40,188 nucleotides of DNA from assembly GCA_013375485.1 (NCBI GenBank), contig JABXKB010000003.1:1-40188 (forward strand). The letters are read 5' to 3'. The notes under the pieces are model-generated. The model made no database searches and was not told the DNA's origin. It worked only from the letters and a program-made list of their open reading frames with translations. A program made the translations under genes and the position numbers. This document shows positions 9,597 through 25,164 of this stretch, piece by piece. This stretch comes from Promethearchaeota archaeon (GTDB lineage: Archaea; Asgardarchaeota; Lokiarchaeia; Sigyniarchaeales; SOKP01). Numbering within the stretch: position 1 is the first letter of the stretch; every line of letters starts with the position of its first letter.

Positions 9597-10631
9597 ATGC
9601 AAGAGTTAGAGAGTTATCGATTGACATTGCAAACTAAGTTGTTCGGATGAAATTGTAAACTTTCAAGTGATAAGCTAGAGAAACTACTGGCTAATGCGGG
9701 CTTAAAGGGTGATATTGAAGATTCCGCCATTATCCCGGTACCGAATTCAAATATAGTTATGGTTAAAAATATTGACATATTCACACCAATTCTAGATGAA
9801 CCAGAAATTGTGGGAGAAATTGCCGCTGCTAATGTTACTAACGATATTTTCGCTTTAAATGTCCCAGAAATATCAGGTATGCTTGTTTTCTTAGGATTAA
9901 AGAAAAATATGCCTATGTACATAGCAGAAGGGATATTAAAGGGAATAAAAAACTTCATGGAGAAAAAGATTCACTCCAAAGTTCTTGGAGGTCATACCAT
10001 TTACTCGGAATGGCCACTTATTGGAGGGGAAGCAAGCGGATTTGTGGTAAGGGACAAGCTTATCAAAAAAGATTTCGTAAAAGAAGGTGATAAATTAATC
10101 CTAACTAAACCAATTGGAAACCAAGCAATAATGGCAGCATACAGATTACAAAAAAACAATCCTGACCTATTAGAAAATTTTTCTATGAATGAAATTGATG
10201 ATTCTATAGATTTAGCTATAAAATTAATGATAATGCCTCTTCAAGAGATAGTAAAAACTATCCATTCATACAAAGATGTATCATTTATTCACTCAATGAC
10301 GGATGTTAGTGGTTTTGGTCTGGCTGGGCATTTAAAGGAAATGCTTCAAAATTCGAAATTTTCAGCTACTATTGAAAAAATTCCTAGTATTAAACTGACA
10401 AGTGAATTAGCTTATAAGTTTGGCTATAAATATGATAACTGCGAGATGCCTGAAACTGCTGGGGGGATGCTACTCTCTGTAGATCATCAATACGTAGAAG
10501 AATTTTCACAAAGACTTAGTAATGAATACAACGTGAAAAATTGGATTATAGGTACAATCGATAACATAAATAAACCTAAATATGTTCGTGTTTCTAAAAA
10601 CGCCGAATATATTGAAATAACAAAAATTTAA
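9597..10631 (+). CDS. selD: Selenophosphate synthetase, selenoprotein (Sec at residue 18), copy 1
   Basis: SelD makes selenophosphate from selenide and ATP, the selenium donor for selenocysteine synthesis. The gene runs through an in-frame TGA at 9648-9650. Decoded as Sec, the N-terminus reads G-U-N-C-K-L, matching the GCGCK active site of E. coli SelD (Cys17, Lys20). Downstream are FTPILDEPEIVGEIAAANVTND (metal and ATP-binding Asp and Asn), GGHTIYSEWPL, TKPIG, TDVSGFGLAGH and AGGMLL, so the whole enzyme of 344 residues is present. The ATG at 9597 has GAGGTGA 4 bases upstream. Normal decoding would give a 17-residue peptide. A SECIS-like element starts directly after the stop codon. The enzyme makes the substrate for its own Sec residue, so expression may depend on selenium supply. 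Confidence 0.95.
9648..9650 (+). other. In-frame TGA read as selenocysteine (selD copy 1)
   Basis: TGA is codon 18 of the frame starting at 9597. The frame is conserved as SelD on both sides of it, and the position corresponds to the catalytic Cys17 of E. coli SelD, where many SelD proteins carry selenocysteine. The second selD copy has TGA at exactly the same codon. Confidence 0.95.
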
Positions 10632-10703
10632 CGATGTCAATGAAATAAGCAAAAACACATCATTGTGGGAGCTTATTGAGAATTCTGTTGTCCAACAGCG
10701 TCG
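10632..10703 (+). promoter_or_regulatory. SECIS-like element after selD copy 1
   Basis: This 72-nt structured segment begins at the first base after the stop codon. An outer helix pairs CGATG (10632-10636) with CGTCG (10699-10703). Inside lies ATGA (10640-10643), then a perfect 7-bp stem AATAAGC (10644-10650)/GCTTATT (10671-10677), a 5-base A bulge, a 4-bp CACA/TGTG hairpin, and GA (10678-10679) opposite the ATGA. This order of ATGA, stem, A-rich bulge, upper hairpin and GA is that of eukaryotic SECIS elements with their kink-turn core. A further hairpin CTGTTG/CAACAG (10685-10698) precedes the closing strand. The same plan with different bases follows selD copy 2. Confidence 0.85.
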
Positions 10704-10748
10704 AATATAATTGGTTGTTTTTACTTCTTATTTTTAATTTTATTAGAT

Positions 10749-10775
10749 TTATTTATCGATAAAATAGATAAATAA
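10749..10775. repeat. 9-bp inverted repeat upstream of selD copy 2
   Basis: TTATTTATC (10749-10757) and GATAAATAA (10767-10775) are perfect inverted copies with a 9-base spacer. The site lies in the 160-base gap between the first SECIS-like element and the second selD, just upstream of a TATA-like TTTTTATAAATATT at 10785-10798. It could be an operator for copy 2 or a hairpin ending the copy 1 transcript. Low complexity makes chance occurrence possible. Confidence 0.4.
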
Positions 10776-10784
10776 TATCGAAAA

Positions 10785-10798
10785 TTTTTATAAATATT
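10785..10798 (+). promoter_or_regulatory. selD: Possible TATA box for selD copy 2
   Basis: TTTTTATAAATATT fits an archaeal TATA element. It lies about 70 bases upstream of the copy 2 start at 10864, leaving room for a short leader. Having its own candidate promoter suggests that copy 2 can be transcribed separately from copy 1. The surrounding sequence is AT-rich, so this is only a suggestion. Confidence 0.35.
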
Positions 10799-10863
10799 TA
10801 GAATTTGATTTATTAACTAACTATAAATCAAAATTTAATAAAAATCATAAAAAGTTGAGGTGT

Positions 10864-11892
10864 ATGAGCAAAAATTTAAAATATCGATTGACTACAGACG
10901 TAAAGATACATGGATGAAGCTGTAAACTTGGACAAAACGACTTAAATGATTTATTAACTAAAGTAGGTCTGGCAGGAGACATTGAAGATGCTGCTATTAT
11001 ACCTATTCCCAATAGTGAATTGGTTCTTATCAAAAGTATTGATATTTTCACTCCTATTATTGATGAACCTGAAATAACTGGTGAAATTGCTGCCTGTAAT
11101 GTGACAAATGATATATTTGCTATGAATGTACCTGAGATATCGGGAATGCTTGTCTTCTTGGCAATTAGTACAAGAACTCCGATGGAAGTTGCTGAAGGGA
11201 TTCTAAAAGGAATAAAAAACTTTATGGAAAAGAAACTAAATTCCCGAGTGGTTGGTGGGCACACCATTTACAGTGAATGGCCATTAATCGGCGGAGAGGC
11301 TTCTGGATATGTCCATAAAGATGCAATTATTCAAAAGCAAGGAGTAAAGAAAGGAGATAAACTAGTTTTAACCAAACCGATAGGATTACAAGCGATTATG
11401 GCATCATATAGGATTCTTAAGGATTTTCCAGAAATACTAGAACATTATTCTAAAGTAGAACTCCAAAAATCTATCGATCTTGCCGTAAAAGTAATGACAA
11501 CTTCTAATCAAGATGTTGTAAAAACGATCCATGCATACAATGATTTTTCATTTGTTCATGCATTAACTGATATTACAGGATTTGGTTTAGCTGGTCATAC
11601 TGCTGAAATGCTTCAGAATTCTGATTTATCTGCAATAATTGATAATATTCCATCAATAAAGTTATCTAAAGAGATATCTAATGAGTTAGGATATGCTTTT
11701 GATGATTGTTATTGTCATGAAACAGCTGGAGGTATGCTACTTGCCGTAGATCCTGCTAAAGCAGAAGATTTTACGACCACACTTACGAGTAATAAGGTTT
11801 CTAACTGGATTGTTGGATCAATAGATAAAGTTCAACCAGGGCTAGTTAGAATCGCAGATAATGCTCAAAATGTTGAAATTACAAAATTATAA
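10864..11892 (+). CDS. selD: Selenophosphate synthetase, selenoprotein (Sec at residue 18), copy 2
   Basis: This second complete SelD of 342 residues follows the first in the same orientation. TGA at 10915-10917 is again codon 18 and gives G-U-S-C-K-L. The body is closely similar to copy 1 over its whole length, sharing for example TNDIFA(M/L)NVPEISGMLVF, GGHTIYSEWPLIGGEASG and the GFGLAGH loop, so the pair arose by gene duplication. Differences are spread evenly and both active sites are intact, so neither is obviously decaying. The ATG at 10864 has TTGAGGTG just upstream. The glycine-rich C-terminal motif is HETAGGMLL rather than the usual QTSGG in both copies' style. A SECIS-like element follows the stop codon at once, and the cinA-like gene converges from the other side. 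Confidence 0.94.
10915..10917 (+). other. In-frame TGA read as selenocysteine (selD copy 2)
   Basis: TGA is codon 18 of the frame opening at 10864, the same codon position as in copy 1, with Cys and Lys of the active site two and three codons later. Confidence 0.94.
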
Positions 11893-11964
11893 TGATGTTA
11901 ATGATATAAGCTTAAACATTATAAATGAATGCTTATGGAAAATTCCACCTGCGAGGTGGCATCA
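11893..11964 (+). promoter_or_regulatory. SECIS-like element after selD copy 2
   Basis: This element has the same 72-nt length and plan as the first and again starts directly after the stop. The outer helix is TGATG (11893-11897)/CATCA (11960-11964). The core is ATGA (11901-11904), stem TATAAGC (11905-11911)/GCTTATG (11931-11937), a 5-base TTAAA bulge, a CATT/AATG upper hairpin with a 3-base loop, a 3-base AAT linker, and GA (11938-11939). The extra hairpin is CCACC (11945-11949)/GGTGG (11955-11959). Against copy 1, the outer helix, upper hairpin and extra hairpin differ in bases but keep pairing, which is good evidence for an RNA structure. Confidence 0.85.
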
Positions 11965-21900: not shown

Positions 21901-24900
21901 TTAAATTTCTTCATATAATTTTTGAGATGTATTAAAAAGGTAATTTTTAATTAATTTTTGCTCTTTTTCATTGATTTCATATAAATTGTATATTATCTTA
22001 TTTAATTCATTTAATTGTTGACTGATATTTCTATTATTTCTTTCAAATTCTATGATTTTAATAACTAACTTTTCAACTTTTTCGACTAAAGCAAGTTTAT
22101 CACTTTTTAGAGACCCTCTTCTTTGGATTATAGGTAAATTTTTCAGAAATGTTGAACCAATCTCAATTTCTACTTCTTTTTTCTTTCCTACAATATCAAT
22201 ATAATATTTCATTAATTCTGAATTAAGAATACCAATTAAATATTTCAAAGAAAAAGCTGTTGCTTTCATTTTGGTGATGAAATAAGTATTATCTACCCAA
22301 GTATTATCATCTACATATGTAAAATTGAAAAATAATCTTGGAATTCGATAACCTATATAAATTACTTCATCATATTTATCAATATTTTTATCACTGTTTT
22401 TCTTAATTTCAAATAGATCTGATTTTGATATATCATTTGACAAAAAATATTTATTTAATTTCTTGTTATTCCAAGCATTTTCTCTATTATGTATAACTAT
22501 AACATATTTATTTAATAAGGGCTTTACAATGAAACTTTTAACTTCACCCATCTTACGATAGCTTCGTAAAAATTCCTCAGGTAAGGCGCTAGGTTTATTC
22601 TCAAATATTAAAATAGGCTTATGTTTTTTTCTAAATGAATTTGTATATTGATTGCAATTATAATCATCTCCTAATTTGGTCTTAATTCTTTTGATTTTTA
22701 AAAAAAGTTCATTATGTGTTTTTGATACAAACGCCCAATTTTCATTAGCATTCCACTCTTTTATGTTAAAATTTCCTAGATCTTCTAAATATTCAATCAT
22801 TTTTGGAGTATTGATTGAATGAGTAAGATTTTCCCTGAAGGTATAAGCTTCGAATTCTTTATTTAAATCAGTCGGTTTCTCTTTAGTATAATTAAGAATT
22901 GAGTTATGAATATCAACTCCTTTAAAGATGAGATTTTCTCGAAAATCGATTATCTTTATAAGATTTACTTTATCTTTGAGAAAAGATTTTAAATAATTTG
23001 CATATGCTGATTCTAACCAATAACGTGATGTTATAAAAATAAAATCTCCTCCCTCTTTTAATAATTCAAAACAACGAACAATAAAATCATAATAAATATC
23101 ACCTTGTCCATGATGATATTTCTTTAAAATTCCTAGCTTTCCAATTAATTTTTGTTCAAATTTCGGAGCAGAAGTTACTCTAAAGTAAGGGGGATTTCCA
23201 ATTATGATATCAAATCCGTCATTTCTTTCGAAAACCTCTGAAAATTCCATTATCCAGTGGAAAAAGTTAAGATCTGAAATATCAGATGATTTTATGTTTA
23301 TTTTTTCTTTACTTAAATCATTTTTTATTGCTTCATTCAATTTATTATTAAAATCATTTGTAATAACATCAACTTTATCTTTAAGTTTTTTTTGTTCAGA
23401 AGGATCTTTAATTGTATAATAATCTCTTATAAATTTATTCCGTTCCATGAATATTTCAGTTAAATCTGCTTTTTTAATCCAAGTGCTTATATCCTCAATA
23501 TCTATTTTAATCGTTTCAGTATTGGTGTATCCAATTAAAGAATTTCCTTTTCTTATATTAAAATCAATATTAGGTAATGGTTCTGGTTCTTGTTTTTGAA
23601 TTATCCATAACCATAATCTTAATTTACATATATCAACAGCCGCCTCTTTGATATCAACTCCATATAAATTATCCTGTATGATTTCCTTTTTGATTATATA
23701 ATCATTTTTCAGAATATCTAATTTTTCCATAATTTTTTTTCTTATTTGAAAAAGTAAATTACCACAACTCAAAAGAAATGCTCCTGAACCCACAGCAGGG
23801 TCACAAATCTTTATTTTTTTAATAATTTTAACAAAAAACTTCTTCAAAATTATCTTCTGGATATCATAGATATCTTCAAATTTCTCAATATATTTCCATT
23901 GTAAATCCTTTTTTTCTTTTAAAAATTCAATTAATCTTTTTTTTATATAATTTTTAATAACCTCTTCAGACATGAATTCAGTTATAACTTGTGGAGTATA
24001 GTATACACCACTTTGTTTTCTATCATCTATTGTTTTTTCTAAAACATGACCTAAAATTTCAGGATCAATTGTATTATCTATCTTAAAATTATTTTGAATA
24101 TCTTCATATTCTTTTTTAAAATGAAAAGTCCTTAAGAATTGAATGGCCTTAATAAATGATTCTCTTCGAATTCTTAGACCCTTTCTATCAATAGGTTTAA
24201 TTCTGAACAAGTCACCATTTAAAAAAGGGATATTATAATAAGATTTTGGAATATTTTCTCTTTCTTTTAATGGTGTATTCAGACTTTCAAAATACAATTG
24301 ATTGATTCGACTATAGAAATTTTCAGGTTCTGTATTTTTCAAATCATTAAGAGTATCATTCCTTATTATTCCGTATTCTGTTAATATTCTTATAAAAATT
24401 AAACGAGTGAAATTTATTCTAATAAAATCCTCTTTTTCCTTTTTTGTCGAAGCATTCAGTACATTATTAATAAGACATTCTTCTTTGACTATAATTTTCC
24501 TTTCATTCTCTTTATCAATATATTCTCCTCCATGAATTAAAGCAACATACCAATTGTAAAATTTTTCTGTTATATCAATTGCTTCCTCTTGAGGTTTCTC
24601 TTGAATTTTTTCACCATTATAGACATTCTCTATTAATTCCAATGCTTCTTTCACAGTTAGATCTTGCTCAATAACTCTGATTTCATCTAACATCTTTTTT
24701 GTTGTGATAAAAACCCATTCCTTACCATTAGATACTAAGGCACTGTTTTGATAACCAATATTTATGTCTGAAATCCAGATTTTTGCTTGGTTTATTCCAT
24801 GATCCTTTTTAATTCTAAGATCTTCATTAAATGGTTCCCATTCAATAAGTAAATTTTTAGTATTTTTAACATCTTGAGAAGGGATAAATCCATCTGGTTT

Positions 24901-25164
24901 TTTTAAATTCCCTAAACTAGTTTTTTTATGAATTTCAGAATGAAAATCAACTTTTGGAAGAAATTTTCTAAGGTAGGGTTCAATTTTGCTTCTTGTATAT
25001 GCTTCTGGGTCACTTTCAATAATTAAATAATTTGATTTTATTGGTTTTCCAATTTTGATTTTTTGATGATGTTCTTTTTTTACTCCTTCCAAAATAGCAT
25101 TTTGGAAAATACTAAATATTTCTTCTTTTGAAATAGTATTATAATTAATTGTCTCGCTCGCCAT
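21901..25164 (-). CDS. Single-chain type IIG-like restriction-modification enzyme (N6-adenine)
   Basis: This 1087-residue protein joins a nuclease-like N-terminus, an adenine methyltransferase and a recognition region. Residues 85-115 contain KKPDGFIPS and LLIEWEP, a PD-(D/E)xK-like pair. The methyltransferase has DPAVGSGAFLLSCGNLL (AdoMet motif I) near residue 454, and the catalytic NPPYFRV near 655. The C-terminal 400 residues fit target recognition (EcoRI57I/Eco57I type). Helix-rich linker segments separate the parts. No separate restriction or specificity gene flanks it, so it could act alone as a defence enzyme. The start is ATG at 25164. A BREX-type PglX is an alternative, but no BREX partners are visible. 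Confidence 0.8.
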   Translation of the reverse strand: MASETINYNTISKEEIFSIFQNAILEGVKKEHHQKIKIGKPIKSNYLIIESDPEAYTRSKIEPYLRKFLPKVDFHSEIHKKTSLGNLKKPDGFIPSQDVKNTKNLLIEWEPFNEDLRIKKDHGINQAKIWISDINIGYQNSALVSNGKEWVFITTKKMLDEIRVIEQDLTVKEALELIENVYNGEKIQEKPQEEAIDITEKFYNWYVALIHGGEYIDKENERKIIVKEECLINNVLNASTKKEKEDFIRINFTRLIFIRILTEYGIIRNDTLNDLKNTEPENFYSRINQLYFESLNTPLKERENIPKSYYNIPFLNGDLFRIKPIDRKGLRIRRESFIKAIQFLRTFHFKKEYEDIQNNFKIDNTIDPEILGHVLEKTIDDRKQSGVYYTPQVITEFMSEEVIKNYIKKRLIEFLKEKKDLQWKYIEKFEDIYDIQKIILKKFFVKIIKKIKICDPAVGSGAFLLSCGNLLFQIRKKIMEKLDILKNDYIIKKEIIQDNLYGVDIKEAAVDICKLRLWLWIIQKQEPEPLPNIDFNIRKGNSLIGYTNTETIKIDIEDISTWIKKADLTEIFMERNKFIRDYYTIKDPSEQKKLKDKVDVITNDFNNKLNEAIKNDLSKEKINIKSSDISDLNFFHWIMEFSEVFERNDGFDIIIGNPPYFRVTSAPKFEQKLIGKLGILKKYHHGQGDIYYDFIVRCFELLKEGGDFIFITSRYWLESAYANYLKSFLKDKVNLIKIIDFRENLIFKGVDIHNSILNYTKEKPTDLNKEFEAYTFRENLTHSINTPKMIEYLEDLGNFNIKEWNANENWAFVSKTHNELFLKIKRIKTKLGDDYNCNQYTNSFRKKHKPILIFENKPSALPEEFLRSYRKMGEVKSFIVKPLLNKYVIVIHNRENAWNNKKLNKYFLSNDISKSDLFEIKKNSDKNIDKYDEVIYIGYRIPRLFFNFTYVDDNTWVDNTYFITKMKATAFSLKYLIGILNSELMKYYIDIVGKKKEVEIEIGSTFLKNLPIIQRRGSLKSDKLALVEKVEKLVIKIIEFERNNRNISQQLNELNKIIYNLYEINEKEQKLIKNYLFNTSQKLYEEI

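Follow-up and report, generated by a model that had tools for sequence, protein, structure and literature searches.

Predicted three-way junctions with a canonical kink-turn in the SECIS elements of two tandem selD genes of a Promethearchaeota archaeon

Results

Tandem selD genes and their genomic setting

The window, i.e. the whole stretch of DNA that was analysed (40,188 nucleotides), makes up an entire contig in the draft genome (4.6 Mb) of a Promethearchaeota archaeon, whose nearest named relatives are Lokiarchaeota. The contig bears a tandem of selD genes, both of which have an in-frame TGA codon for selenocysteine (Sec):

9597-10631, + strand: selD1, Sec at codon 18 (TGA 9648-9650), stop TAA 10629-10631; TIGR00476 174.8 bits, cut-off 125
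10864-11892, + strand: selD2, Sec at codon 18 (TGA 10915-10917), stop TAA 11890-11892; TIGR00476 195.8 bits, cut-off 125

TIGR00476 is the NCBIfam selD model, and both genes were translated with TGA read as Sec, which lies in each within the motif GU(N/S)CK. The two copies share 61% identity and, when 52 SelD proteins of the window's family were placed in a tree, formed separate groups with 100/100 support, so that the duplication is old. In this tree copy 1 (selD1) is confined to the genera g1 and g8, and copy 2 is also present in further genera of the family. According to the available text of Huang et al. 2024 (PMC11227280), at least two selD genes occur in 51 Loki- and Thorarchaeia organisms. 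Within the same genome we found a tRNA-Sec (61.1 bits, gathering score 47), a SepSecS gene and, in addition, four hdrA-mvhD pairs that contain in-frame TGA codons. The window also holds a gene for an Eco57I-type restriction-modification methylase of 1087 aa at 21901-25164.

Structure of the two elements

Each selD is followed by a 72-nt element in which, as predicted, a closing helix (P1) would enclose an upper arm (P2), mounted on a short C-stem, together with a separate hairpin (P3):

10632-10703, + strand: SECIS element 1, predicted three-way junction, 72 nt (descriptor, covariance model and structure parse)
10632-10636, + strand: element 1, P1 5' strand, partner 10699-10703 (also alignment-based)
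10637-10638, + strand: element 1, kink-turn C-stem 5' strand UC, partner 10680-10681 GA
10639-10643, + strand: element 1, 3-nt bulge AAU and 5' GA of the tandem G.A
10640-10643, + strand: element 1, ATGA
10644-10677, + strand: element 1, P2 upper arm with 7-bp stem, AAAAA bulge, 4-bp ministem and linker GGA
10644-10650/10671-10677, + strand: element 1, 7-bp stem
10656-10659/10664-10667, + strand: element 1, 4-bp ministem, apical loop of 4 nt
10678-10679, + strand: element 1, 3' GA of the tandem G.A
10680-10681, + strand: element 1, C-stem 3' strand GA
10685-10698, + strand: element 1, P3 hairpin CUGUU-GUCC-AACAG (also alignment-based)
10699-10703, + strand: element 1, P1 3' strand
11893-11964, + strand: SECIS element 2, predicted three-way junction, 72 nt (descriptor, covariance model and structure parse)
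11893-11897, + strand: element 2, P1 5' strand, partner 11960-11964
11898-11899, + strand: element 2, C-stem 5' strand UU, partner 11940-11941 AA
11900-11904, + strand: element 2, 3-nt bulge AAU and 5' GA
11901-11904, + strand: element 2, ATGA
11905-11937, + strand: element 2, P2 upper arm with 7-bp stem, UUAAA bulge, 4-bp ministem and linker AAU
11905-11911/11931-11937, + strand: element 2, 7-bp stem
11917-11920/11924-11927, + strand: element 2, 4-bp ministem, apical loop of 3 nt
11938-11939, + strand: element 2, 3' GA of the tandem G.A
11940-11941, + strand: element 2, C-stem 3' strand AA
11945-11959, + strand: element 2, P3 hairpin CCACC-UGCGA-GGUGG, whose loop holds GCGA, of GNRA type
11960-11964, + strand: element 2, P1 3' strand

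A preliminary description of this DNA had assigned to both elements an ATGA, a 7-bp stem, a 5-base bulge ending in AAA, a 4-bp hairpin, a 3-base linker and GA, starting without spacer at the stop codon; all of these parts were present in both, and the first base of each element directly follows the TAA stop. It had also stated that the bases differ between the elements with pairing kept. In agreement with this, the full structure has 23 pairs, each of them standard in both elements, with 9 of the 23 changed on both sides and 1 on one side; in P3, 4 of 5 pairs differ on both sides. A second hairpin (10685-10698; 11945-11959), lying inside what had been taken for the outer helix, was missing from that description. 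As this helix encloses two hairpins and not one, the architecture was revised to a three-way junction with a canonical kink-turn. T-rich stretches lie 3' of both window elements.

In a canonical kink-turn, an RNA motif bound by L7Ae, a C-stem with 2 bp or more is combined with a bulge that counts exactly 3 nt, with tandem G.A pairs and with a second stem. By this general definition, the C-stem, the 3-nt bulge and the tandem G.A (GA 10642-10643/10678-10679 in element 1 and 11903-11904/11938-11939 in element 2) are found in both window elements, together with the second stem; unlike in the kink-turn by itself, the motif would sit here inside a larger, predicted three-way junction. Pairing resumes beneath the tandem G.A, as UC/GA in element 1, UU/AA in element 2 and UCC/GGA in the Thor elements. 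Among elements with P2, a bulge of exactly 3 nt allowed two C-stem pairs in 91% (selD) and 66% (mvhD), against at most 32% and 39%, respectively, at other bulge lengths from 0 to 7 nt. In the Loki alignment these two C-stem pairs show standard pairing in 96% of cases, and swaps of the CG/UA and UA/AU kind occur.

Chance tests and model searches

On both strands of the window, a strict hairpin descriptor that asks for ATGA, a 7-bp stem, a bulge ending in AAA, a small hairpin and GA matched elements 1 and 2 only. Over 100 dinucleotide shuffles it gave 0.05 matches per window, which argues that the elements did not arise by chance; this fell to 0.010 when P1 and P3 were added and to none with the C-stem as well. 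The preliminary description had proposed a scan of the genome, and in the 4.6-Mb genome a covariance model trained on 62 relatives, both elements among them, likewise returned only the two selD elements at E ≤ 10, having scored 150 of 3260 first-look candidates.

SelD was found in 115 of the 227 genomes of the phylum that were searched. Over these 227 genomes the Loki covariance model gave 81 matches in 54 genomes, all of the window's family and all SelD-positive; there were none in the 112 genomes without SelD, which bears on the use of a junction-bearing model in gene finding. The selD-trained model did not reach the mvhD elements of the window's own genome nor, across the 227 genomes, the selD of other families, the latter being what one would expect from a narrow model that was run with stricter filters. 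The preliminary description had staked its reading on matches to SECIS models and on covariation in further homologues: no Rfam SECIS family matches the window, either at its gathering score or at E ≤ 10, and covariation was found in many homologues. Folding energy was unexceptional for single sequences (z of -0.97, -1.65, -0.39 and -1.36), and we therefore relied on comparison between relatives.

Covariation in Loki and Thor alignments

The selD 3' ends that were used comprise 139 of the 146 listed matches, from 113 of the 115 SelD genomes; seven selD fragments were left out (G150:C283, the second of G142:C43, the first of G148:C52, the second of G149:C48, G147:C22, G084 and G151:C78). Alignment A2 (Loki) holds 62 of the 82 ends of the family, 67 remaining after removal of near-copies and five type I variants being excluded by hand, and alignment A3 (Thor) holds 32 of 35 selD ends, near-copies removed. 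The 22 selD ends of other families entered the descriptor counts and neither alignment.

From plain MAFFT alignments, RNAalifold predicted P1, P2 and P3 unprompted both in the 62 Loki-family ends, with 17 of 19 pairs changed on both sides, and in the 32 Thor selD ends (14 of 21 pairs). When the named structure was imposed, 94.2% of the cells were paired in the Loki set against 85.3% after shuffling and 93.6% against 82.5% in the Thor set, with both-sided changes in 20 of 22 and 15 of 22 pairs, respectively; as the sequences share kinship, these shuffle counts overstate significance. Sliding the partner by 1-3 columns lowered the paired share to 30-48% in the two sets. Both-sided changes occur in every helix of the Loki set, including 5 of 5 counted pairs of P3, and in the Thor set in three pairs of P1, five of P3 and none of the C-stem. 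In Thor the C-stem hardly varies, nor does much of P1, so that complementarity, and not covariation, carries the prediction there. Alternative pairs turn up repeatedly in different genera.

Spread of the junction across selD and mvhD

The mvhD set consists of 65 ends from 40 genomes among the matches listed: the four of the own genome, the rows with at least two TGA and a single row with one TGA, other rows with one or no TGA being left out. P2 was picked on its own score alone, and in the control the flanks were shuffled with P2 kept. P2 was parsed in 128 of 139 selD ends and 61 of 65 mvhD ends, the descriptor giving none in the other 11 and 4. Given P2, both P1 and P3 were found in 120 of 128 selD and 55 of 61 mvhD ends (31.4% and 28.8% with shuffled flanks), and at a stricter cut in 103 of 128 versus 6.2% and 47 of 61 versus 5.1%; they were weak or absent in the further 8 selD and 6 mvhD ends. 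These counts take two mvhD parses that seem misplaced (G094:C69 and G072) as failures, and the single f19 selD junction (G074), doubtful by eye, as a success.

The selD junctions come from families f1, f3, f4, f5, f19, f20, f23, f26 and f28, with one sequence apiece for f5, f23 and the doubtful f19; the single parsed selD end of f7 showed no junction. With the looser descriptor, all four hdrA-mvhD ends of the own genome parse with P1 and P3; a first, stricter descriptor had given three of the four, the fourth being without a parsed P2. At the level of sequence comparison, the predicted three-way plan is thereby shown to be common to the selD of several families of the phylum and to most of the hdrA-mvhD pairs examined, with type I (single-loop) as well as type II (ministem) arms. 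GCRA occurs in the P3 loop region of 78 of 120 selD and 17 of 55 mvhD junctions, and GNRA in 88 of 120 and 29 of 55; the P3 loop of element 1 is GUCC, not GCRA.

It might be argued that these elements are plain two-helix, eukaryote-like SECIS and that P3 is an unrelated 3'-UTR hairpin which came to lie inside the lower stem by chance. Besides its stems, the published model has an internal and an apical loop, a 2022 review (PMC9499178) states, citing Mariotti 2016, that there is only one apical loop in the Lokiarchaeota SECIS, and the Rfam result fits this reading too. We nevertheless hold it to be improbable, since P3 covaries in both the Loki and the Thor alignments, is changed in four of its five pairs between the window copies and recurs 3' of mvhD with different sequences. 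Another explanation, decidedly improbable in our view, would make P1 and P3 a stabiliser of the transcript 3' end or a terminator hairpin that merged with the SECIS and takes no part in recoding. The T-rich tracts downstream of the window elements speak for it, but the whole SECIS arm lies within P1, and P3 takes the same place in the junction in selD and mvhD. Moreover, in 30 of 30 Thor selD junctions the P1 5' strand starts upstream of the stop codon, i.e. in coding sequence, and part of the SECIS is therefore coding.

Discussion

Judged from sequence comparison, each 72-nt element is likely to be the SECIS of the preceding selD, folded as a three-way junction with P2 on a canonical kink-turn and P3 as a separate hairpin. 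P1 would close the junction and enclose both the SECIS arm P2 and the hairpin P3. P2 would correspond to the arm known from eukaryotic SECIS, with a C-stem of 2-3 bp, a 3-nt bulge, tandem G.A, a long upper stem, an A-rich bulge and a ministem, and P3 would be a hairpin of its own, with a loop often of GCRA or GNRA type. The element would probably act in cis so that the ribosome, with the tRNA-Sec and SepSecS of this genome, reads the in-frame UGA as Sec. More tentatively, a kink-turn binder of the L7Ae/L30e kind, the protein Sel_Asgard or both may hold the kinked P2, and P3 may either set the angle of the arms or serve EFSec or the ribosome as a place to dock. The conserved P3 is predicted to be a second, separate target.

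Comparison with known SECIS elements

That Asgard selD carries mainly eukaryote-like type II SECIS is already known, and here the preliminary description agreed with published reports: in the available text of PMC11227280, which covers 409 Asgard genomes, eukaryote-like SECIS are reported for 1224 of 1439 selenoprotein genes, those of selD being mainly type II. The model given there places a core, an upper stem and an apical loop above an internal loop and a lower stem, and its type II limits are a GA_[G/A]A core, an upper stem of 7-15 bp, a ministem of 2-8 bp, a bulge of 4-12 nt and an apical loop of 2-6 nt. Both window elements lie within these limits (upper stem 7 bp, ministem 4 bp, bulge 5+3 nt, apical loop 4 nt in element 1 and 3 nt in element 2), have the GA_[G/A]A core and belong to the 3' UTR of genes that contain Sec. 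They share with the published type II elements the AUGA_GA core, the upper stem, the ministem, the A-rich bulge and the position 3' of selD; in contrast, the published text has an internal loop where we find the C-stem and P3. According to the same source, SECISearch3 detected nothing significant on Asgard genes and sbp2 is absent from Asgard genomes. A second hairpin, a three-way junction or a C-stem is not named in the text of PMC11227280, its figures and supplement aside, and neither hairpin nor junction is mentioned in the consulted passages of a 2026 review (PMC13188914) and of PMC9723677. More broadly, no three-way junction is described for an archaeal SECIS in the titles, abstract openings and passages of the literature searched. 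The three-way junction with P3 and a canonical kink-turn C-stem is therefore new with respect to the published texts searched.

Eukaryotic SECIS consist, as described in the available part of PMC3706390, of two helices with a large internal loop and a non-canonical kink-turn. The preliminary description had attributed the eukaryotic architecture to the elements. This holds for the AUGA...GA core with its tandem G.A, for the unpaired A-rich apical bulge and for the 3' UTR position, which are shared with eukaryotic types I and II, but not for the remainder, since there are three helices here and a paired C-stem with a 3-nt bulge, together with P3, replaces the internal loop. It is possible, although we regard this as tentative and would not favor it, that the ancestral Asgard SECIS was three-armed, that P3 and the C-stem do the recruiting which later became the job of SBP2, and that the eukaryotic internal loop is a remnant of their loss. 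Eukaryotes would then have opened the C-stem and lost P3 later, upon the rise of SBP2. If the junction is ancestral, eukaryotic SECIS would have arisen by simplification of a three-armed RNA.

The methanogen SECIS is built of a single stem that has an internal loop of the GAA/A kind and ends in a terminal loop, according to the parts of PMC11881835 and PMC9622424 consulted. The window elements resemble it in lying at the 3' end of an archaeal selenoprotein gene and in having a kink-turn-like motif, and the archaeal host as well as the 3' location might suggest a methanogen-type (GAA_A) SECIS. However, an internal loop with GAA opposite A is missing from the folds of both elements, which makes this assignment extremely improbable and upholds the statement of the preliminary description that they are not of this type. 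A lokiarchaeal SECIS is reported to be inactive in M. maripaludis in the consulted part of PMC11881835. We also considered P3 as a methanogen GAA_A hairpin into which P2 had been inserted; by eye no constant GAA_A was found at the P1/P3 border, and this idea was rejected.

Candidate binding proteins

A canonical kink-turn predicts the class of its binder, the L7Ae family, which was found in 59 of 59 Asgard genomes examined. PF01248 (L7Ae) is present in two copies in 56 of these genomes and in one copy in 3, with or without Sec. An extra L7Ae paralogue standing in for SBP2 was rejected, as copy number is about equal with and without Sec, and a dedicated extra L7Ae protein is an unlikely SECIS binder. 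An ordinary L7Ae or L30e is a possible binder of the predicted kink-turn; given the similar copy numbers, it is the motif only that ties L7Ae to Sec. The eight weakest second-copy PF01248 scores belong to the eight genomes of the window's family that were searched (E from 4.6e-9 to 1.8e-13), the own copy being G000:C118:6213-6494.

Another candidate is Sel_Asgard (NF045535, in NCBIfam a 'putative selenocysteine system protein'), whose 226-aa gene in the own genome (L261:3941-4621, G000:C101) adjoins SepSecS and tRNA-Sec. This protein, and not one of the L7Ae type, might be the putative SECIS-binding adaptor, recognising P3 or the junction. Besides its gene neighborhood, NF045535 scores over its cut-off in 97 of 115 SelD genomes and in 29 of 112 others, and it may be the hypothetical protein near Sec genes that is named in the available text of PMC11227280. 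Against this role, 29 genomes, eight of them of one family (f18), have NF045535 without a SelD match, no Pfam domain was found in the protein of the own genome, and HMMER comparison with solved structures gave no solved relative (best E 0.033). On balance we regard Sel_Asgard as an unlikely adaptor, though one to be taken seriously. Two long proteins (L292 and L293) with PCI, UFM1-ligase, DDRGK and VPS28 domains gave weak NF045535 matches in their C-terminal part, hinting at kinship of Sel_Asgard with Asgard ESCRT-I/VPS28-like proteins.

Variants of the element

Five selD elements have a single loop (type I) of 11 nt (L039, L044, L059, L065 and L068). Three of the five keep clear P1 and P3, so that the apical form can apparently switch with the junction constant. 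A pseudoknot between GUUAG in the type I loop and CUAAC after the core was seen by eye in G106 and G107; inspection by eye did not show it in the three remaining type I ends of selD, and it was rejected. One mvhD end of the own genome (G000:C361, L153) has the core AUGA...AA and not AUGA...GA, a variant reported for hdrA/frhD in the available text of PMC11227280. In A3, the Thor P1 5' strand reads GAGACCG or close variants of it. Thor SelD has a conserved C-terminus, ETEFP, whose codons also form P1 and the C-stem, and the conservation of these residues may be owed to the RNA.
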